From the NCBI GenBank assembly GCA_015492495.1, contig WGEY01000109.1:1-39874 (forward strand): a DNA stretch of 39,874 bases, read 5' to 3'. How positions within the stretch are numbered: position 1 is the stretch's first letter; every line of letters starts with the position of its first letter. This DNA is from Deltaproteobacteria bacterium (GTDB lineage Bacteria > Desulfobacterota > GWC2-55-46 > DRQE01). Position numbers and translations under genes: made by a program. Below, piece by piece: positions 9,472 to 23,294 of the stretch. Under the pieces are notes generated by a model. That model saw nothing but the letters and a program-made list of their open reading frames with translations. It was not told the DNA's origin and made no database searches.

Positions 9472-9933
9472 TCAATCAGATGCCAGTCGCTCAAGCGACG
9501 AAAGAAGCTCCACTTCACCCTTGTACAACTTGAGCTTCTCCGACACCTTCTCCAACGGCTCTCCTGTCCTTAATAGCTCCTTTGCCCTGGCTATCTCCTC
9601 TTCCCTGTTCTTTAAGGGATCGGGGCTGGAGAGTGCTTCAAGGACCTCATCAACCTTGGCTATAACATCTGAAAGGCGTTGCTGTTTACGCTCAAGCTCG
9701 GCGTTGTAGGTTTCCATCTCAGCACGTCTTTTTTCAAGGTCTTCGACGATGCATCTCATCTTGTGGAGTTCGGCCTCTAGTTCTACGTGTACGGCATCGT
9801 CCCTGGAACGGGAGGCGGATTGCCGGGCCTGTGGAGTATCTCCGTAGGTGTTCTTTAGCCTTAACAGGAGGTACAGCACCGCTCCCATAAGGATGAGATC
9901 CGAACCCAGCAATATGATATTCCAGGTTTCCAT
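9472..9933 (-). CDS. DUF2802/DUF6115-like membrane-anchored coiled-coil protein
   Basis: A 153-residue protein with one N-terminal membrane segment (IILLGSDLILMGAVLYLLLR, residues 6-25), a charged coiled coil at about 50-100, and a compact C-terminus, ARAKELLRTGEPLEKVSEKL then YKGEVELLSSL. That C-terminal pattern resembles the DUF2802/DUF6115 families, small proteins often found beside flagellar and chemotaxis genes, with no defined function that I know. It is predicted to sit in the inner membrane with the coiled coil in the cytoplasm. It lies 39 bases after a small gene and precedes the flgF region. The family call is moderate; the topology is read from the sequence. Confidence 0.7.
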   Translation of the reverse strand: METWNIILLGSDLILMGAVLYLLLRLKNTYGDTPQARQSASRSRDDAVHVELEAELHKMRCIVEDLEKRRAEMETYNAELERKQQRLSDVIAKVDEVLEALSSPDPLKNREEEIARAKELLRTGEPLEKVSEKLKLYKGEVELLSSLERLASD

Positions 9934-10298: not shown

Positions 10299-11141
10299 TC
10301 AGGCGACACCGGACTTCACATTGTCAACGAGACCGGTAACCTCTTCCGCATCCATGTCGAGCAGTTCCCTGAGCTCGTCATCATCCATTACACCTTCGAC
10401 CTGGCATCTCCATCCGATGCCGAGCTTCTGGCATATCCTGTCAGACGTCACCACGGACTTGGCGATGCTGTAAAGGTATTCGTCGGTGGAGAGGCTCTCT
10501 ATGTTGTCGAAGTACTTTATCAGCATCTCCATGGATTCGGGAAAGCTCCACTTCCTTACCACAAGGGCCCCTACCTGCATGTGGTTGAAGCCGAATATCT
10601 CGTCCTCCACCTCCCTGAAGGAACACCCTTCGTTATAAACCCTCTCCATGACCACGTGGAAGGAATCGGGATCTTCGTTGTTGAGGACGACCTTTCCGAC
10701 ATCATGAAGCAGTCCGCCTATGAAGGCGTCCTCGGCATAGGCCGGACTTGAACGTCTCGCGATGATATGCGATATTACGGCTGCTCCTATGGACTGTTCC
10801 CACAGAAGCTTTTCCGTAAGGCCGAACCTCTTGTACACCCCCTTCATCGAGGCGGCCATGACTATGTTCTCAACCGCCCTGAAGCCGAGTCGCATGATAG
10901 CCTGAGAAAGGTTCTGTATGCTTCTGTGTCCGCCGTAGAAGGCGGAGTTCGCTATCTTCAGTATCTTGGCGGTAATACCAGGATCGGCCATGATGACGTC
11001 CTTTAGGCCCTCGACGCTGATATCGGGGTCGGACATCATGGCAAGCAGCTTCTGGGCCGTTGCCGGCAGGACAGGAAGGTCGCATGTCCTGAGTATAAGA
11101 TCATCCAAGTCGGTGTTGCCGCGCCTCTGTTCTTTCTGCAT
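10299..11141 (-). CDS. HDOD-domain signalling protein
   Basis: A 280-residue protein made almost entirely of an HDOD domain (HD-related output domain). It begins after about 12 residues with DLILRTCDLPVLPATAQKLL. Diagnostic stretches are KILKIANSAFYGGHRSIQNL, the HD-like FIGGLLHDVGKVVLN, and IFGFNHMQVGALVVRKWSFP. HDOD proteins are non-catalytic or of unknown catalysis and act as partners in signalling, often next to chemotaxis genes. There is no receiver or GGDEF domain attached. The ATG at 11141 has an in-frame stop just upstream and no strong Shine-Dalgarno sequence. A FliA promoter 136 bases upstream places it in the flagellar regulon. Confidence 0.92.
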   Translation of the reverse strand: MQKEQRRGNTDLDDLILRTCDLPVLPATAQKLLAMMSDPDISVEGLKDVIMADPGITAKILKIANSAFYGGHRSIQNLSQAIMRLGFRAVENIVMAASMKGVYKRFGLTEKLLWEQSIGAAVISHIIARRSSPAYAEDAFIGGLLHDVGKVVLNNEDPDSFHVVMERVYNEGCSFREVEDEIFGFNHMQVGALVVRKWSFPESMEMLIKYFDNIESLSTDEYLYSIAKSVVTSDRICQKLGIGWRCQVEGVMDDDELRELLDMDAEEVTGLVDNVKSGVA

Positions 11142-11283: not shown

Positions 11284-11310
11284 TTATCGGTGAAGTTCGA
11301 GAACACTTGA
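11284..11310 (-). promoter_or_regulatory. Sigma-28 promoter for the HDOD gene
   Basis: On the minus strand this reads TCAA, 15 bases, then ACCGATAA. Against the FliA consensus (TAAA-N15-GCCGATAA) there is one mismatch in each box. Predicted start is near 11277. It lies in the cheW-HDOD intergenic gap. Confidence 0.72.
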
Positions 11311-14908: not shown

Positions 14909-15955
14909 TCAGCAGGCCACTTTCACGATCTCTTCGGCCATCTCATCGAGTGAGACCACCTTGTCGGCAAGGGCCGCATCGACCACGGCCTTCGGCATGC
15001 CGTATACAGTGCACGTGTCTTCACTCTGCGCGATGGTCGTCCCGCCTTTCTGCTTGATGACCCTCATACCGTTCATTCCGTCACGCCCCATCCCGGTGAG
15101 GATGACGCCGACTGTGCGCGAAAGGAACGCCTCGGCAGCGCTTGTCATGGTTATGTCTATGCAGGGCTTGTATAGGACATCCTTCGGTTCGTCGCTTATT
15201 TCAACACCAAAGACCCCGGCGGACCTTCTCCTGATCCTCGTCTGCATCCCGCCAGGTGTTATAAAGATATGGCCGCTTTTAAGCGCCTCTCCCCCCTCTG
15301 CCTCCTTGACCTTGAGGGCGCACAATGCATCCATCCTTTCTGCAAAGGCCTTTGTAAACGCCATCGGCATATGGACCGCGACGACGAAGGTGGTTGTCAT
15401 CCCCCCTGGTATCCGCGGCAGTATCTCCTGCAGGGCCTTGGGGCCGCCTGTGGAGGCCCCTATCACTACGATGTCGGCCTTGCGTGAGCCGGAGGTAGGA
15501 CGTGGAATATGCACGGGTGAATGTTTAACGATCCTCGGTCTGACCAGCATCCTTCCTCTTCTGGCCACGGCCTTGACCTTCTCCACCAGCTCGGTCTTGA
15601 CCTTTATTATATCGATTACCGAGCGGGATATGGTCTTTGTTACGTAATCCGCAGCCCCTTTGTCCAGCGCATCCAATGTAACCTTGGCGCCTTCTGTCGT
15701 TATGGAGCTCAAAACCAGGATCGGTCTGGGGGACCTCTCCATAATGACCTCTATCGCCTCGAGACCGTTCATCCTCGGCATCTCGATATCCATGGTGACG
15801 ACATCGGGGGAGTACTCCAAGACCATTTCGACCCCCTCGCGCCCGTCCTTTGCTGCCCCGATCACCTCTATCGCCGGATCTGATTCCAGCATCTCCCGCA
15901 CGACCCTTCTCATGAAGGCTGAATCATCTACTATAAGCACCCTTATCCGATTCAC
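14909..15955 (-). CDS. cheB: CheB, receptor methylesterase and glutamine deamidase
   Basis: A 348-residue response regulator with a catalytic domain. The receiver has acidic D10/D11 and phospho-acceptor D56 (DVVTMDIEMPRMNG). The methylesterase has the catalytic triad Ser168 (VIGASTGGPKAL), His195 (VAVHMPMAFT) and Asp292 (GMGRDGMNGM). It removes methyl groups from receptor glutamates, opposing CheR, and is activated by CheA phosphorylation. The start is GTG at 15955 with AAGGAG nine bases upstream. It is the last gene of the che operon, 17 bases after cheA. All key residues are intact. Confidence 0.98.
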   Translation of the reverse strand: MNRIRVLIVDDSAFMRRVVREMLESDPAIEVIGAAKDGREGVEMVLEYSPDVVTMDIEMPRMNGLEAIEVIMERSPRPILVLSSITTEGAKVTLDALDKGAADYVTKTISRSVIDIIKVKTELVEKVKAVARRGRMLVRPRIVKHSPVHIPRPTSGSRKADIVVIGASTGGPKALQEILPRIPGGMTTTFVVAVHMPMAFTKAFAERMDALCALKVKEAEGGEALKSGHIFITPGGMQTRIRRRSAGVFGVEISDEPKDVLYKPCIDITMTSAAEAFLSRTVGVILTGMGRDGMNGMRVIKQKGGTTIAQSEDTCTVYGMPKAVVDAALADKVVSLDEMAEEIVKVAC

Positions 15956-15972: not shown

Positions 15973-17805
15973 CTACTTCAGCGCCAGGTTACCCGCCGTG
16001 CTGTATCTGCTCCTGACCACATCCAGCAGGCCTCCCATATCGAGTATAAGTATCACCTTGCCGTCGCCTGTCACGCATGCCCCGGCTATACCGGCGGTGC
16101 CCTTAAGGTACTCTCCCATGGACTTCATCACTATCTCTTCCTGTCCGTGCAATCTGTCCACCAAGAGACCCAGTCGCCGGTCGCCTAACTCCACTATCAC
16201 CAGATACATCCACTCGGACTCGCTGCGCACGGATGCGCGCCCAACAAGATCATCCAGGCTTACCACCGGAAGGACGTTGTCGCGTATGTTGATGATCTTC
16301 CTTTCGTTCATGGTCTTTATCTCGTTCTTGTTGACCCTTATATTCTCCATGACCGTGGTGAGCGGTATGGCGTAGAGTTCACCTCCAGCCTCCACGGTAA
16401 GCGCGTTGATGATCGCCAGGGTAAGCGGCAGCCTGAAGGTTATACAAGTGCCACGGCCGGGTCTAGTATCAACTATGACGGAGCCGTTTATCTTGGCGAT
16501 GTTGGTCTTTACGACATCCATGCCAACTCCCCTGCCCGATATGTCGCTGACCTCACGTGCGGTTGAAAAGCCTGGCATGAATATAAGGTCGCAGGCCTCC
16601 TTGTCCGTAAGCTTGTCCGCTTCCTCCTTCGATATGAGCCCCTTGTTGACGGCGCTCTCCTTCACGCGCTCAACATCGATGCCCTTTCCGTCATCCTCCG
16701 CGGTGATGAAGATATTGCGCCCCTCCTGGTAGGCCGTAAGGGTTATGGTCCCATGCCTGGGCTTGCCCTGCTTGACCCTTTCGTCCGGCGGTTCGAGGCC
16801 GTGATCAATGGAGTTCCTTATTATGTGCACAAGGGGGTCACCTATCTCCTCTATGACGCTCTTGTCGACCTCGGTCTCTTCCCCTTTTATGACAAGCTCT
16901 ACCTCCTTCTTCTTCAGCCTCGCAAGATCCCTGACCATCCTGGGAAATCGGTTGAAGACCTTGCTTACGGGCTGCATCCTCATCTTCATTACCGCAAGCT
17001 GCAGGTCGGTGCTGACGAGGTTCAACTGGGAGATGGCCTCGTCCATCTGAACTACCATCTCGTTTTCATGATCCCACTCGTTTAGCTTCGTGCCCAGTCT
17101 CATAAGTCTGTTCCTTGCAAGCACCAACTCGCCGACGAGGTTCATAACATTGTCGAGCCTCGATATATCGACCCTTATGCTGTACTCCTTATCCCTTCCA
17201 CGCGCCGTAGCGGACTTCTTCTCCTCCTTCGCATCCTGCGCTGCAGGTGTTCCGGAAGGTGACTGCTCCCGGGGCTGAGCAATATCCTCGTCTTTATTCT
17301 CCCCTTCCTTGTCATCAACGCCCTTCTCCTCCGCGCCTTCCTCTGCCTTTACTTCATCAGTTCCTTCAGCACCCTCCTGCACATCCACGCTGTCCGCTGG
17401 TATCTCTCCCCCTTTCAGGATGAACGACAGGAGGTTCACAACAGGGGCGGTATCGACCTTCTCCTCGCACTTTTTTTCCTCTATTATCTTGAGAAGGACC
17501 TTTATGAGGTCCACCGCCTGGAGGATCGCGTCCATGATCTGGGGCGTAAGCTTCATCTCGCCTTTTCTAAGGCGGTTCAACACATCCTCGGTGACATGGG
17601 AGACCTCGACCGTCTGCTCGAAACCGAGGAATCCCGCCGCCCCCTTTATCGTATGGATGCTTCTGAAGACCTCGTTCAAAAGATCCACGTCACCTGGCGA
17701 CTTCTCAAGCTCCAGGAACTTCTGCTCCAGCGAGTCGAGCGACTCCGAAGACTCCACGATGAAGTCCTGTATTATATCGTCCATTCCTTCCATATCCATT
17801 GCCAT
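15973..17805 (-). CDS. cheA: CheA, chemotaxis histidine kinase
   Basis: A 610-residue kinase. The P1 phosphotransfer domain has phospho-acceptor His51 (FRSIHTIKGAAGFLG). Residues about 130-205 are an acidic low-complexity linker in place of a clear P2 domain. P3 dimerisation follows (SIRVDISRLDNVMNLVGELV), then P4 ATP binding with HIIRNSIDHGLE, ITAEDDGKGID and ISGRGVGMDVV, then a CheW-like P5 (LPLTLAIINALTVEAGGELY onward). It phosphorylates CheY and CheB in response to receptors. The absence of an obvious CheY-docking P2 is an unusual but known variant. ATG at 17805 has AAGGAG upstream. It lies between cheZ and cheB. Confidence 0.98.
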   Translation of the reverse strand: MAMDMEGMDDIIQDFIVESSESLDSLEQKFLELEKSPGDVDLLNEVFRSIHTIKGAAGFLGFEQTVEVSHVTEDVLNRLRKGEMKLTPQIMDAILQAVDLIKVLLKIIEEKKCEEKVDTAPVVNLLSFILKGGEIPADSVDVQEGAEGTDEVKAEEGAEEKGVDDKEGENKDEDIAQPREQSPSGTPAAQDAKEEKKSATARGRDKEYSIRVDISRLDNVMNLVGELVLARNRLMRLGTKLNEWDHENEMVVQMDEAISQLNLVSTDLQLAVMKMRMQPVSKVFNRFPRMVRDLARLKKKEVELVIKGEETEVDKSVIEEIGDPLVHIIRNSIDHGLEPPDERVKQGKPRHGTITLTAYQEGRNIFITAEDDGKGIDVERVKESAVNKGLISKEEADKLTDKEACDLIFMPGFSTAREVSDISGRGVGMDVVKTNIAKINGSVIVDTRPGRGTCITFRLPLTLAIINALTVEAGGELYAIPLTTVMENIRVNKNEIKTMNERKIINIRDNVLPVVSLDDLVGRASVRSESEWMYLVIVELGDRRLGLLVDRLHGQEEIVMKSMGEYLKGTAGIAGACVTGDGKVILILDMGGLLDVVRSRYSTAGNLALK

Positions 17806-17861: not shown

Positions 17862-18458
17862 TCACTGCATCTCCTTCAGTATCTTGTCGACAACGTCCTG
17901 CTTGAGTTCCATTGAAACCGAGACATCCTTCAGCTCATCCAGCAGTCCTTCCTTGTCCGACGGATCCTTGTTGCTCTGGAGACCGAAGTGCACGGCCAGC
18001 TCGAGTATCTTCGACTGTACGTCCGAGAAGGCACTCATCACCTTTCTGAGCTTCTGGCCGGAAAGGTCGTGAAAGGAGAGGTTCGTCAGGATATCCATCA
18101 TGTCGGCCTTCATCCTGACGATAACACCCTCGAGCACCTGGATAATGCCGAGCCCTTCGCTGGCGTTCTTCTCCTCGAGGTCCTCGGCCCAGCTCTTCAG
18201 TATGCCCAGAAGGTTCAGCGATCTCTCCTGTTCCCTCATAACCCTCTCTAGGATGGACATTATCGTGTTGGCCGCCTTCTCGAGGTCGCCGGTAACGCAC
18301 CTTATATGGTCGGTAGCCTCTGGAAGCTTTTCATTACCGGCCTTCACCGTGGACTCGATACCGTCCAGACCCTTCTTCGTTTTTTCAACGAAGTTGGCAA
18401 GCTCCGAGAGCTCGCCCTTGATGTCATTCAAGACCGCATCCCACTTTTCTTCGCTCAT
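17862..18458 (-). CDS. cheZ: CheZ, CheY-P phosphatase
   Basis: A 198-residue helical protein. The catalytic signature of CheZ, D-L-S/T-G-Q, is present as SFHDLSGQKLRKVM, with Asp131 and Gln135 matching the catalytic Asp143 and Gln147 of enteric CheZ. The extreme C-terminus KQDVVDKILKEMQ resembles the CheY-binding C-terminal helix of CheZ. The long helices on each side fit the hairpin fold. It dephosphorylates CheY-P to end the tumble or reversal signal. It sits between cheY and cheA. CheZ is less common outside the beta and gamma proteobacteria, so annotation pipelines may label it only as a chemotaxis or coiled-coil protein. Confidence 0.9.
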   Translation of the reverse strand: MSEEKWDAVLNDIKGELSELANFVEKTKKGLDGIESTVKAGNEKLPEATDHIRCVTGDLEKAANTIMSILERVMREQERSLNLLGILKSWAEDLEEKNASEGLGIIQVLEGVIVRMKADMMDILTNLSFHDLSGQKLRKVMSAFSDVQSKILELAVHFGLQSNKDPSDKEGLLDELKDVSVSMELKQDVVDKILKEMQ

Positions 18459-18553: not shown

Positions 18554-18931
18554 CTACTGCTTGAAAATGAGGTCTATCTTTTCCTTGAGACTCGCTGCAG
18601 TAAAGGGTTTCACGATATAATTGCTCACCCCGGCCTGAACGGCCTCTATCACATTCTCCTTCTTTGCCTCGGCCGTGACCATGAGCACCGGTATACTCTT
18701 CAACTCCTCGTCGGCCCTGATCGCCCTCAGAAGATCTATGCCTGACATGCGCGGCATGTTCCAGTCGGTTATGACGAAGTTGAAGCCCCCGCCCCTGAGC
18801 TTCTCAAGGGCCATTGCTCCATCCTCGGCCTCTTCCACATTGGTATAATCGAGCTCCTTCAAAAGGTTTCTTATGATCCTTCTCATGGTCGGGAAGTCAT
18901 CGACCACCAGGATCTTCATATCGTTATCCAT
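18554..18931 (-). CDS. cheY: CheY, single-domain response regulator (motor-binding type)
   Basis: A receiver-only protein of about 125 residues, very close to classical CheY. The segment [20 protein letters not shown], the phospho-acceptor Asp in [17 protein letters not shown] (near residue 56), the Thr in [13 protein letters not shown] and the Tyr-Ile-Val-Lys-Pro of SNYIVKPF are all present. CheY-P binds FliM at the motor; the fliM gene in this window has the matching N-terminal peptide. GTG 18934 and ATG 18931 are both possible behind GGAGGAG; I use the ATG. It sits between the other cheY and cheZ. Of the two CheY proteins, this is the more likely motor regulator. Confidence 0.96.
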
Positions 18932-18980
18932 CACTCATCTCCTCCGTTGACTTGATGTAGGGTGATATCTAATCCACCGG

Positions 18981-19358
18981 CTAATCGGATGGCGGCTCTA
19001 AAAACTTGGCTATCTCGCTCACGAGCCTCTGAGGAGAAACGGGCTTCACCAGATAGCTTGTCACTCCCGACTCTCTGGCAACCCTCATGTCCTCCTCTCC
19101 CGACTCGGTGGTAATCATTATTACCGGAAGATCCTTGTAGGTCTCGTTGTAGCGTATGTTTCTCGAAAGTTCCAGCCCGTCCATCTGAGGCATGTTGAGA
19201 TCCGTGACCACGAGCCCGATGTCATGAGTGGCCAGTTTTTCGAGCGCCTCTATGCCGTTGCATGCGCCTACGGTGGAATAGCCCCTCTCCCGTACCATGT
19301 AGCTCAGGAGCTTTCTTGTGGTGTTGCAGTCATCGACTATCAGTATATGTTTCTTCAT
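18981..19358 (-). CDS. Second CheY-like single-domain response regulator
   Basis: A 125-residue receiver with Asp9/Asp10, phospho-acceptor Asp53 (LVVTDLNMPQMDGLEL), switch Thr in VIMITTESGEED and Lys in SYLVKPVSP. It is clearly a functional receiver but diverges from classical CheY: the start is ILIVDDCNTTRKLLSYMVRE. It may act as a phosphate sink, an adaptation regulator, or a partner of the HEAT-repeat or HDOD proteins. It is 9 bases after cheR and 46 bases before the classical cheY. Exact role is unknown. Confidence 0.92.
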   Translation of the reverse strand: MKKHILIVDDCNTTRKLLSYMVRERGYSTVGACNGIEALEKLATHDIGLVVTDLNMPQMDGLELSRNIRYNETYKDLPVIMITTESGEEDMRVARESGVTSYLVKPVSPQRLVSEIAKFLEPPSD

Positions 19359-19367
19359 GGCTTAACC

Positions 19368-20225
19368 CTATACCTTCTGATAGACCACGGAATTTTTTAT
19401 ACTCACAGGCCTGAACAGCCGTGTAATGTTATGAAGCGACTCGGAGAATCCGACAAAAAGATACCCTCCTTTGACCAGGCTGTCATAGATATGATTTATG
19501 ACCCTTTTTTTGGTGTCATCGTTGAAGTAGATAAGAACATTTCTGCAAAAGACTATGTCCCTTCTCCTGACCATCCTTGTCTCGCTTGAATCAATGAGGT
19601 TGATCCTCTTGAACTTCACGAGCGAGTTGACGGTACCCTTCACGATGTAGGAGTGGCCGTTCTTGACGAAGTACTTGTTCAGGATCCTCTCCGGCGTGTT
19701 ACGTACGGAGTAGTTTTCATACCTGCCCTTCATGGCGGCATCCAGAACCGTGTTGCTTATGTCGCTGCCTATTATGTCTATCGTCCAACCCTTGTTCAGT
19801 AACCCCTCTTCCAGTAATATCATTGCGAGCGTCAATGGTTCCTCGCCTGTGGAGCAGGCCGCGCTCCACAACCTCAAGGTCTTGTCATTCATACGGGACT
19901 TTTCTTCGATCACCTTCGGCAGCACCCCTTTTCTGAAGACATCGAGTTGCACAGGGTCACGAAAAAAACTCGTCTCGTTTGTCACCACCACATTGAAGAG
20001 GTTTTTGTATTCAAGCTCCCTGGCGCTGTCGTAAGTGAGAAAATATAGATAGTCCTCGAAGGACTTGAGGTTTCTCTGTTCCAGCCTCCTCAAAAGCCTC
20101 TTCTCAAGAAGATACCTCTTGTTGTCCGCAAAATATATCCCGCACCTCTCGGCCACTATGTCCCTGAGCTTACGAAAGGTCTCCACCGAAAGGGCAGGCT
20201 TGTTATCTACCCTGAATGTAACCAT
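19368..20225 (-). CDS. cheR: CheR, receptor glutamate methyltransferase
   Basis: A 285-residue SAM-dependent methyltransferase. The N-terminal helical domain includes RCGIYFADNKRYLLEKRLLR. The SAM-binding domain has LRLWSAACSTGEEPLTLAMI, the acidic strand end WTIDIIGSDIS, and DIVFCRNVLIYF. It methylates receptor glutamates, opposing CheB. The usual GEEPYS/T is GEEPLT here, a conservative change next to the SAM site. The ATG at 20225 overlaps the end of the HEAT-repeat gene by 19 bases with GGAG upstream. This indicates tight co-translation with the upstream gene. Confidence 0.97.
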   Translation of the reverse strand: MVTFRVDNKPALSVETFRKLRDIVAERCGIYFADNKRYLLEKRLLRRLEQRNLKSFEDYLYFLTYDSARELEYKNLFNVVVTNETSFFRDPVQLDVFRKGVLPKVIEEKSRMNDKTLRLWSAACSTGEEPLTLAMILLEEGLLNKGWTIDIIGSDISNTVLDAAMKGRYENYSVRNTPERILNKYFVKNGHSYIVKGTVNSLVKFKRINLIDSSETRMVRRRDIVFCRNVLIYFNDDTKKRVINHIYDSLVKGGYLFVGFSESLHNITRLFRPVSIKNSVVYQKV

Positions 20226-22150
20226 CTTATCGACTCCGCCGCCTCTCTGGCCGCTTCACTCACATTCGGATCCGGATGATCAAAGAGCTCTTCAAGCGCC
20301 GGCAGTCCTTTCTGCGTACCCATGTTTTCAAGAGCCCTTGCGGCAGCCGCCCTTACGGGAGGTTCGTCGCTGGAGAGCAACCCTATAATCAGATCCTCGA
20401 AGCCGTCAACCCTCACCTCGCCGAGCAGTTGAACGGCCATGTACCTTACCCACATGTTCTCGTCATTCAACGCCCCCTTCAACGCCTCCGCAAGCTTATC
20501 GACCGGCCATGCCCCGTCTGACTCGGCGATCGCCTTCAAGACAGCCTGCCTTACCCCTTCATCTCCGTCTTTCAGCCCGTCGATGGCACACTCAAAGGCC
20601 TCTGGCAGGTTCAAGCGTACCATGGCCCTGTAGATGGCCTTCCGCACCCTCGGGCTCTCGTCTCCAAGGGCGGCCCTGAGATGTTCGAGGGCACAGGCGG
20701 CACCTACGGCACCAAGGCCACGGGCGGCCATCGACCTCAACGCCTCGCTCGGGCTGGAAAAGAGCTCTACAAACCCCTTCACCACCTCCTCGGACGGCAT
20801 GCCGGCTAGGACGTCTGTTATATCCTCCATGACGTCCTCGTACGGTTCGGCCCTCAACACGTCAAAGAGAGCTGGCACGGCCTCCGTACCGACGAGTTCG
20901 GCTATGGCCCTTACCGCGGCCCTCCTCACGTGCCCTTCATCCCATCTCACGAGAGACCAGAGGATCTCGACAGATTCATCGGAGTTTATCTGTTCGAGTG
21001 CTTCAACGATCTCCAGAAGCTCATCCTTTCCCACCAGGTCGAGCAGGTCGGAAAGGGCAGGTATCGCCTCTTTGGCCCTCAACCTGCCGGCCACCCTTAT
21101 GCAGACCCTGAGAGGTCCGGTGCCGTTGCTCCTCAATCCGTCAAGCACTGCATCCGGCACCACGCCATCGCCTGCCATGGACACAACGGCATCGACTACG
21201 AGGGACTCTGTCTCCTCATCGAGCTCCGCCAATCCGTCTATGTACTTCAAAACCCTCTCTATACCGCGGCGGTCCTTCAGCAACGCAAGCCCCCTTAACG
21301 CCTCCTTTTCGACCTCCCTTTGTCCATCCTCAAGTGCTTCCAAAAAGAAATGGAAGAAGACATCCTTCGAGTCCCGGTCAAGATCAAAGTCCCCGCCAGG
21401 CATTGAAGCCTTCTCGAACATGTCCACAACGGCCGGAACCGGCAGGCAATGGCCCTGGGCCAACAGCTCCTTGAACTTGGAGAGGATGGTCGCGCAACTG
21501 GCCGGCGTAGAGACCTTTCCGACCGCATCTATTGCGCCTATCTTCACGATCATGCTGTCGTTGTCGAGGGCCTTCAAAAGCGGCTCGAGCGGTGCATCAT
21601 CGAGTTGCCCGAGCGCCTCTACCACCGAGAACCTAACCCACTCCTCCCCATCGTCAAGCAACGAAAGCAACACCTCACAGCTCTCCCTGCCCTGCACATT
21701 GCCCAGACAAACCGCAACGGCCGCCCTGATATTGGGGTTGATGTGCGAAACAAGCGGGATAAGATGCTCCACCACCCTCGGATCGCTCCATGAGCTTATG
21801 ATGTCAAGGGCGTGTTTTACGATATCGTCGTCAGCGTCGCGCAGAAGCGACACCACCACGTCAAAGGCATCCTCACCCAACGCCTCCAGCACCTCTACCG
21901 CAATATTTCTCATGGACGCCTCGCTCGAGGTCAAAAGAGGCACCACCGCCTCGGCGACATCCTCTCCGCCTATGGATACCAGCGCGTTCAGCGCGGCCTC
22001 CTTGACGCCGACGTCATCATCAGAAAGCAGGGTTACGAGTTCCGGGATATACTCCACCCTTCTTTCCTCGGCGATGACCGCGCAACCATCCCTTCTTTCG
22101 GAGGGATCTTCGCTTCTCAGACAGTCGCTTATGTTGATAGTTTCAGGCAT
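20207..22150 (-). CDS. HEAT-repeat protein leading the chemotaxis operon
   Basis: A 647-residue acidic protein built almost wholly of about twenty HEAT (PBS-lyase-like) helical-hairpin repeats of roughly 31 residues. Typical copies are EAALNALVSIGGEDVAEAVV near residues 50-69 and AAARALENMGTQKGLPALEE near the C-terminus. No catalytic domain, signal peptide or membrane segment is visible. Such solenoids usually form protein-binding scaffolds. It is the first gene after a FliA promoter and overlaps cheR by 19 bases, so it is made with the adaptation and signalling proteins. Likely partners are CheR, the second CheY or the receptor array; this is inference. HEAT-repeat genes beside che genes occur in some deltaproteobacteria, but I know of no assigned function. 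Confidence 0.9.
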   Translation of the reverse strand: MPETINISDCLRSEDPSERRDGCAVIAEERRVEYIPELVTLLSDDDVGVKEAALNALVSIGGEDVAEAVVPLLTSSEASMRNIAVEVLEALGEDAFDVVVSLLRDADDDIVKHALDIISSWSDPRVVEHLIPLVSHINPNIRAAVAVCLGNVQGRESCEVLLSLLDDGEEWVRFSVVEALGQLDDAPLEPLLKALDNDSMIVKIGAIDAVGKVSTPASCATILSKFKELLAQGHCLPVPAVVDMFEKASMPGGDFDLDRDSKDVFFHFFLEALEDGQREVEKEALRGLALLKDRRGIERVLKYIDGLAELDEETESLVVDAVVSMAGDGVVPDAVLDGLRSNGTGPLRVCIRVAGRLRAKEAIPALSDLLDLVGKDELLEIVEALEQINSDESVEILWSLVRWDEGHVRRAAVRAIAELVGTEAVPALFDVLRAEPYEDVMEDITDVLAGMPSEEVVKGFVELFSSPSEALRSMAARGLGAVGAACALEHLRAALGDESPRVRKAIYRAMVRLNLPEAFECAIDGLKDGDEGVRQAVLKAIAESDGAWPVDKLAEALKGALNDENMWVRYMAVQLLGEVRVDGFEDLIIGLLSSDEPPVRAAAARALENMGTQKGLPALEELFDHPDPNVSEAAREAAESIRWLHSG

Positions 22151-22165
22151 GATTACTCTCTATTT

Positions 22166-22192
22166 TTATCGGATACGCCGCCGATTTCTTTA
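22166..22192 (-). promoter_or_regulatory. Sigma-28 promoter for the HEAT-cheR-cheY-cheY-cheZ-cheA-cheB operon
   Basis: On the minus strand this reads TAAAGAAA, 11 bases, then TCCGATAA. It has TAAA and CCGATAA intact at the canonical spacing; only the first base of the -10 box differs from consensus. Predicted start is near 22159, about nine bases before the ATG at 22150, so the leader is very short. Confidence 0.85.
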
Positions 22193-22532: not shown

Positions 22533-23294
22533 TCACTTTTCCAGATACTTTCGCAGCCGTCCCTTCAGCCTGTGAATGCTCTGGCTGTGAAGCTGGCAGA
22601 CACGTGACTCGGTGATATCGAGCACCTTGCCTATTTCCTTCATGGTAAGCTCGTCATAATAGTAAAGAGATATGACGAGCTTCTCCTTTTCCGGCAACGT
22701 GTCAACGGCCTCTTTTATTATTTCCTTGAGTTCGTTCAGCCTGTGGATCGTGACCGGATCCTTGCCGTTCGGGTCCTTTATGCAGTCAAGTATATTCAGA
22801 CCCTCGCCTTCCTTGAGACCCAGGTCTTCGATATTGAGCACGCTGAACGAGCTCACCTCTCTGAGGAGTTTGAATAGGTGCTCTTCGCTTATTCCAAGGA
22901 ACTCCGCGACCTCTTCGCTCTCGGCAGGCCTTCCCATGCGTTTTTCCACGGCGTCATAGGCCTTGGCGAGCTGATTGGACTTCTCCCTCATCGAACGGCT
23001 CATCCAGTCCATGTTTCTGAGCTCGTCCATTATCGCGCCGCGTATCCTTATGGTCGCGTAAGTCTTGAACTTGACCCCCCTGGAAGGATCGAACTTGTCG
23101 ACGGCCTCGATCAGCCCAATGGTTCCTGAGCTTACGAGGTCGTTTATCTCTATGTGTGGTGGCAGATGAATTGCAAGCTGGTGCGCTATGATCTTGACAA
23201 GGGTGGCGTTCTCCGTAATCAGCTTATCCCTCTGGGCGCTGTTGTTGAAGTATTTGTTTGGTTGTGAGCCGTACATGGCAACCCCTCTGTTCAT
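22533..23294 (-). CDS. fliA: FliA, flagellar sigma factor sigma-28
   Basis: A 253-residue sigma-70-family factor of group 3. Region 2 includes SSGTIGLIEAVDKFDPSRGV and FKTYATIRIRGAIMDELRNM. Region 3 is near residues 100-150. Region 4 has LTMKEIGKVLDITESRVCQL followed by HSQSIHRLKGRLRKYL, the -35 recognition helix area. It directs RNA polymerase to the late promoters found at four places in this window, and is held inactive by FlgM (gene at 3982-4293). Starts at 23294 or 23276 are both possible; each has a modest ribosome-binding site. It is the last gene of the long sigma-54 operon, 15 bases after flhG. Confidence 0.97.
   Translation of the reverse strand: MNRGVAMYGSQPNKYFNNSAQRDKLITENATLVKIIAHQLAIHLPPHIEINDLVSSGTIGLIEAVDKFDPSRGVKFKTYATIRIRGAIMDELRNMDWMSRSMREKSNQLAKAYDAVEKRMGRPAESEEVAEFLGISEEHLFKLLREVSSFSVLNIEDLGLKEGEGLNILDCIKDPNGKDPVTIHRLNELKEIIKEAVDTLPEKEKLVISLYYYDELTMKEIGKVLDITESRVCQLHSQSIHRLKGRLRKYLEK

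Follow-up and report, generated by a model that had tools for sequence, protein, structure and literature searches.

A HEAT-repeat solenoid encoded with cheR is very probably an unrecognised component of the machinery tuning how bacteria steer

We analyzed a HEAT-repeat protein gene (hereafter HEAT) in a contig of a Deltaproteobacteria bacterium, WGEY01000109.1; the whole stretch of 39,874 nucleotides is referred to as the window. HEAT is retained phylum-wide, and appears and disappears together with CheY2, a second, stand-alone CheY; very probably, therefore, it belongs to the chemotaxis machinery and has so far gone unrecognised there. We propose, with a probability of about 0.5, that HEAT serves this family of chemosensory systems as a dedicated accessory scaffold, binding CheY2 and linking it to the CheR methylation branch.

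The HEAT gene, its promoter and its operon

The genes on the minus strand are arranged in the order flhB-flhA-flhF-flhG-fliA-HEAT-cheR-cheY2-cheY1-cheZ-cheA-cheB. The features of this region of the window are as follows.

22533 to 23294, minus strand: fliA, sigma28, directly upstream of HEAT (FliA_WhiG 9.5e-79, above the cut-off)
22166 to 22192, minus strand: sigma28 (FliA)-type promoter, TAAAGAAA-N11-TCCGATAA (sole exact match in the window)
20207 to 22150, minus strand: HEAT-repeat solenoid gene, gene 1 of the che operon (ORF, HEAT_2 match, AlphaFold2 model, orthologs)
19368 to 20225, minus strand: cheR, gapped beta-subdomain, pentapeptide-independent type (CheR 2.4e-54; gapped against 1af7)
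18981 to 19358, minus strand: cheY2, divergent stand-alone receiver (Response_reg 6e-28; alignments; co-occurrence with HEAT)
18554 to 18934, minus strand: cheY1, canonical motor CheY (phmmer 2e-53 to enterobacterial-type CheY)
17862 to 18458, minus strand: cheZ, CheY-P phosphatase (PF04344 6e-11)
15973 to 17805, minus strand: cheA, kinase (Hpt, H-kinase_dim, HATPase_c and CheW domains)
14909 to 15955, minus strand: cheB, methylesterase (PF01339 2e-61)

The HEAT ORF encodes 647 amino acids from an ATG start. The product matched HEAT_2 at 1.9e-75 (249.6 bits against a cut-off of 27.7) in eight stretches along the whole chain, which places it in the HEAT repeat family (PF13646/PF03130), and the Pfam scan revealed no enzyme domain. 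The AlphaFold2 model (mean pLDDT 87.9, pTM 0.60) contained 38 helices, corresponding to about 20 hairpins; its alignment held one homolog only, and the overall curvature is uncertain. Conservation was higher in the alternate (B) helices (3.22 vs. 2.47 bits, p < 1e-6), with the structural HEAT consensus accounting for some of it. By HEAT convention we take the B helices to form the inner face of the solenoid, and conservation there is expected if a ligand binds inside the superhelix. A fold search returned only generic HEAT solenoids. Designed alphaReps, PP2A PR65/A, SF3B1 and karyopherins share with HEAT a partner-binding superhelix fold, but this likeness is general, has low TM-scores and implies no functional kinship. 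Identity as a phycobilin lyase or NblB protein (CpcE, CpcF, CpeY) was rejected, as the scores were 104 for NblB, 54 for CpcE and 41 for CpcF against NCBIfam equivalog cut-offs of 300, 330 and 220, respectively.

The 3' end of HEAT overlaps cheR, whose product consists of CheR_N and CheR domains (Pfam), by 19 nt. On its upstream side the HEAT ATG adjoins the sigma28-type site, for which 0.01 exact matches per window were expected in shuffled sequences. Of 46 relatives, 33 had a similar site no more than 80 nt ahead of HEAT, compared with 0.04% of shuffled upstream sequences. Control of HEAT by FliA is thus predicted, and is well supported by sequence; co-transcription with the che genes is predicted likewise. 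The sequence-only reading had described a roughly 20-repeat HEAT protein without an enzyme domain, encoded by the first gene of the che operon and overlapping cheR translationally, and the fold, the ORF order and the position of the promoter bear this description out. Its terms "FliA-dependent" and "co-transcribed" are to be read as predictions from the DNA.

Elsewhere in the window, a weaker sigma28-like site with one mismatch (11285-11310, minus strand) was observed upstream of an HDOD gene (10299-11141). A gene for a coiled-coil DUF2802 protein (9472-9933, minus strand) lies between the HDOD and flgF genes, and one was also found near flgF in another genome (G006, locus L123).

Conservation of the linkage to che genes

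A scan of the collection found one HEAT homolog only, and the survey was therefore built on whole-genome searches. We examined 59 genomes belonging to the family, order and class of this bacterium; 42 carried a HEAT ortholog with 33-49% identity, full length except for a few at contig ends. In these carriers, cheR lay directly downstream of HEAT in every neighborhood read in which the downstream side was present. The reverse comparison gave the same picture: among the 45 CheR genes sharing 50% identity or more with that of the window, 41 had HEAT directly upstream, with alignment gaps of -15 to +42 nt between the two genes in the linked pairs. The four exceptions were two contig ends (G041 and G019) and two genomes of one genus, g7. 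HEAT was also directly upstream of all eight next-closest CheR genes (40-49% identity), and of 3 of the 77 remaining CheR genes compared in the same genomes. The sequence-only reading had listed a lack of conserved linkage to che genes in other genomes among what would refute it, and this refutation fails strongly.

In a sample of 395 genomes of the phylum, 65 contained a strong HEAT match (E <= 1e-50). Forty further neighborhoods from these were read. Most of the orthologs belonged to che clusters, which varied in architecture: fliA-HEAT-cheR-cheY2-cheY1-cheA, cheB-HEAT-cheR-(ParA-like)-cheW-cheY2-cheA, cheY1-HEAT-HDOD-cheR-cheY2, cheR-HEAT-cheY2-cheA and mcp-HEAT-cheR-cheB-cheY2. Some HEAT-bearing che clusters had no flagellar genes alongside. 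Orthologs with as little as 25% identity kept the linkage, while unrelated HEAT proteins were unlinked. HEAT thus has the conserved che-operon location in many species that characterizes an operon-encoded accessory protein of chemotaxis.

Inheritance of HEAT with CheY2

The presence of HEAT and that of CheY2 agreed across the 59 genomes except in G041 and G046, both at contig ends (HEAT of G002, split over two contigs, was scored as present). In genus g7 (G006, 100% complete, and G008), HEAT, CheY2 and CheZ were jointly absent; a profile search of the g7 genomes returned only small or unrelated HEAT proteins. The genus retains the order fliA-[sigma28 promoter]-cheR-cheY1-cheA-cheB, the G008 contig stopping in cheA. 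In the CheR tree, used for topology only, g7 CheR fell inside the clade of HEAT-linked CheRs, and g7 CheY1 likewise grouped among those of HEAT-bearing relatives. Because of this nesting, the g7 state is most simply explained as a loss, which counts as a single evolutionary event with CheZ included. The CheY tree, with a weak backbone, split CheY1 from CheY2-type sequences and did not show the HEAT-linked CheYs as one clade.

In family f28, HEAT, CheY2 and CheY1(TPR) genes share a cluster with RR-HD, PilZ and histidine kinase genes, and cheR and flhA are elsewhere in the genome. The CheY1-like receiver fused to a TPR array (L081:8369-9529) adjoins HEAT and CheY2 outside any cheA/cheR cluster. 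Because of g7 and f28, we rejected the idea that HEAT has no partner but CheR, and the persistence of CheR without HEAT in g7 indicates that methylation in general can do without HEAT. CheZ was likewise rejected as an essential partner, as one genome (G019) has HEAT and CheY2 and lacks CheZ. Another genome (G029) contains two HEAT and two CheY2 genes; here the operon fliA-HEAT-cheR-cheY2-cheY1-cheZ-cheA occurs in two copies (L040 and L051).

A stand-alone receiver gene on the same strand was found at 84 of 92 HEAT loci. The other eight comprised four contig ends, two ORF-length artefacts and two real exceptions. At these two loci (L112 and L113), HEAT lies between two cheR genes, and no stand-alone CheY was detected nearby. 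We also compared pairwise distances at 28 loci with the other operon genes controlled. The partial correlation of HEAT was 0.49 with CheR, 0.40 with CheY2, 0.28 with CheA and 0.00 with CheY1; since the loci are not independent and adjacent genes may mimic co-evolution, for instance by sharing recombination blocks, these values serve as supporting evidence only. What is read from sequence is the operon with its promoter, the fold, the linkage across the phylum, the joint loss with CheY2 and the pentapeptide-independent type of CheR.

Proposed role and competing explanations

In the proposed mechanism, a long HEAT superhelix would be expressed at the same stage as the late genes that depend on FliA. 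CheY2, the non-motor CheY, would be its constant partner, with CheR tied to the superhelix through operon order and co-evolution. CheA would phosphorylate both CheY1 and CheY2; CheY1-P would act on the motor and be dephosphorylated by CheZ, and phosphorylated CheY2 would dock inside the solenoid, on the conserved face formed by the B helices. HEAT would in turn hold or gate CheR, of the type needing no receptor pentapeptide, so that kinase output would feed back on receptor methylation. Binding of CheR, the dependence of CheY2 binding on phosphorylation and the feedback on methylation are predictions, and we infer that HEAT is wired to CheR and not to CheA or the array. It is possible, and we suggest it only tentatively, that HEAT, CheR and CheY2 constitute a third, undescribed adaptation feedback branch in many genomes across the phylum, in which the CheY2-P-bound solenoid would control the methyltransferase, complementing CheB phosphorylation and replacing the CheC/CheD loop and the receptor pentapeptide.

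The predicted binding of CheY2 by HEAT is supported by the precedent of Cpc7, a HEAT-repeat protein of the Myxococcus xanthus Che7 system that binds CheY7 (Darnell et al. 2014, cited in PMC11514114). Together with OE2401F (see below), Cpc7 is the closest experimental backing for the scaffold. The che7 system also includes a CheR (PMC3945109). Cpc7 resembles HEAT in belonging to a chemosensory system, and its partner is a stand-alone CheY; unlike flagellar taxis, Che7 couples aggregation and sporulation. Linkage to and co-inheritance with a stand-alone CheY, the pattern of a Cpc7-like protein, were both found for HEAT.

Another role, which we consider unlikely, is that the solenoid only concentrates CheR at receptor arrays in place of a receptor C-terminal tether, with CheY2 as a bystander. 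Adjacency to cheR with translational overlap at nearly all loci would fit such a role, as would the partial correlation being strongest with CheR. The type of CheR fits this role and the proposed scaffold alike. The HEAT-linked CheR has a gapped beta-subdomain in the alignment to 1af7, a feature that goes with pentapeptide-independent methylation, and the receptor encoded in the HEAT cluster ends in ...DSSKVA. The ungapped CheR and receptor tethering pentapeptide of the pentapeptide-dependent type were therefore not found with HEAT. The opposite was observed in a second che cluster of the same genome (L131, contig C20, 8000-24000), where HEAT is absent, CheR is ungapped and the receptors end in EFVEI/EFVEM, resembling the EFEKF pentapeptide of Geobacter 34H receptors (PMC2577667). 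Judging from these two clusters, two methylation systems seem to coexist in the genome, one of pentapeptide type and one of HEAT type. However, g7 has CheR and lost HEAT together with CheY2, f28 has HEAT next to CheY2 but away from cheR, and many bacteria have a pentapeptide-independent CheR without a known HEAT partner (PMC2577667, also cited for this CheR type, names B. subtilis and T. maritima). CheR-TPR fusions, found mostly in systems with alternative cellular functions, likewise join a helical-repeat scaffold to CheR (PMC3447774), but the repeats are TPR and fused, whereas HEAT is encoded by a separate gene.

Alternatively, HEAT and CheY2 might act as a phosphate sink, a sequestered CheY that shortens the signal, or might serve a second output unrelated to flagella, like Cpc7 in development; in either case CheR would not be acted on directly. 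CheY2 has the receiver active-site residues, and in alignments its alpha4-beta5-alpha5 region is unlike that of motor CheY and lacks the canonical FliM-binding face, in keeping with this explanation. The co-loss of HEAT, CheY2 and CheZ in g7 fits a signal-termination set, and the f28 cluster, with its RR-HD, PilZ and histidine kinase genes, is compatible with another output, as is the Cpc7-CheY7 precedent. But G019 keeps HEAT and CheY2 without CheZ, and the near-universal adjacency to cheR is left unexplained, so that we hold this role, too, to be improbable.

A motor adaptor linking CheY to the flagellar switch was rejected and is very unlikely. The model for it is OE2401F of Halobacterium salinarum, a HEAT_PBS protein of the che/flagellar region that binds Che proteins and is essential for tactic switching, its deletion abolishing switching (PMC2666748). 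HEAT resembles it in being encoded with che and flagellar genes, and the sigma28 promoter groups HEAT with late flagellar genes. However, OE2401F serves an archaeal motor with CheD and OE2402F (CheF) as partners; HEAT adjoins fliA and cheR where an OE2401F-like gene would adjoin cheF, and neither CheF (DUF439) nor CheD was found among the scanned window genes. The window FliM begins MAEQILSQNEVDALLKG, with its N-terminal motif LSQNEVDALLKG intact. We take LSQNEVDALLKG in this position to be the known CheY-binding motif; together with the canonical CheY1 it makes an adaptor unnecessary. Moreover, g7 has flagellar and che genes without HEAT, and HEAT occurs in che clusters without adjoining flagellar genes. 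The several other HEAT proteins encoded outside che clusters in these genomes might suggest a passenger of other function, co-transcribed by chance, but this is equally improbable given a linkage that survives phylum-wide rearrangement of the clusters, in orthologs and not in unrelated HEAT proteins, and the selective co-loss with CheY2.

The sequence-only reading had offered a scaffold for CheR, the second CheY or the array, or an adaptor to another process. CheY2 and CheR emerge as the likeliest partners, and a role as adaptor to the motor is not supported. The absence of precedent implied by its statement that no standard chemotaxis model includes such a protein was too strong, as Cpc7 (PMC11514114) and OE2401F (PMC2666748) are precedents; HEAT proteins of chemosensory systems are thus known in two lineages, and as a kind they are not novel. 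The Geobacter che survey (PMC2577667) was found not to mention HEAT in its main text. A HEAT family of che operons that spans the phylum, is paired with CheY2 and a pentapeptide-independent CheR, and has been lost naturally together with CheY2 appears to be undescribed in the searchable literature, most subscription papers lying outside it.

The natural deletions in g7 and the duplications in G029 make the scaffold hypothesis directly testable. In the usual textbook picture of chemotaxis signalling, CheR is constitutive and not subject to regulation, and many species carry an extra, non-motor CheY whose function the scaffold might explain. If HEAT is a phylum-wide scaffold tied to CheR and the second CheY, the feedback of output onto methylation would be built differently in many bacteria, and this CheY would gain a function.
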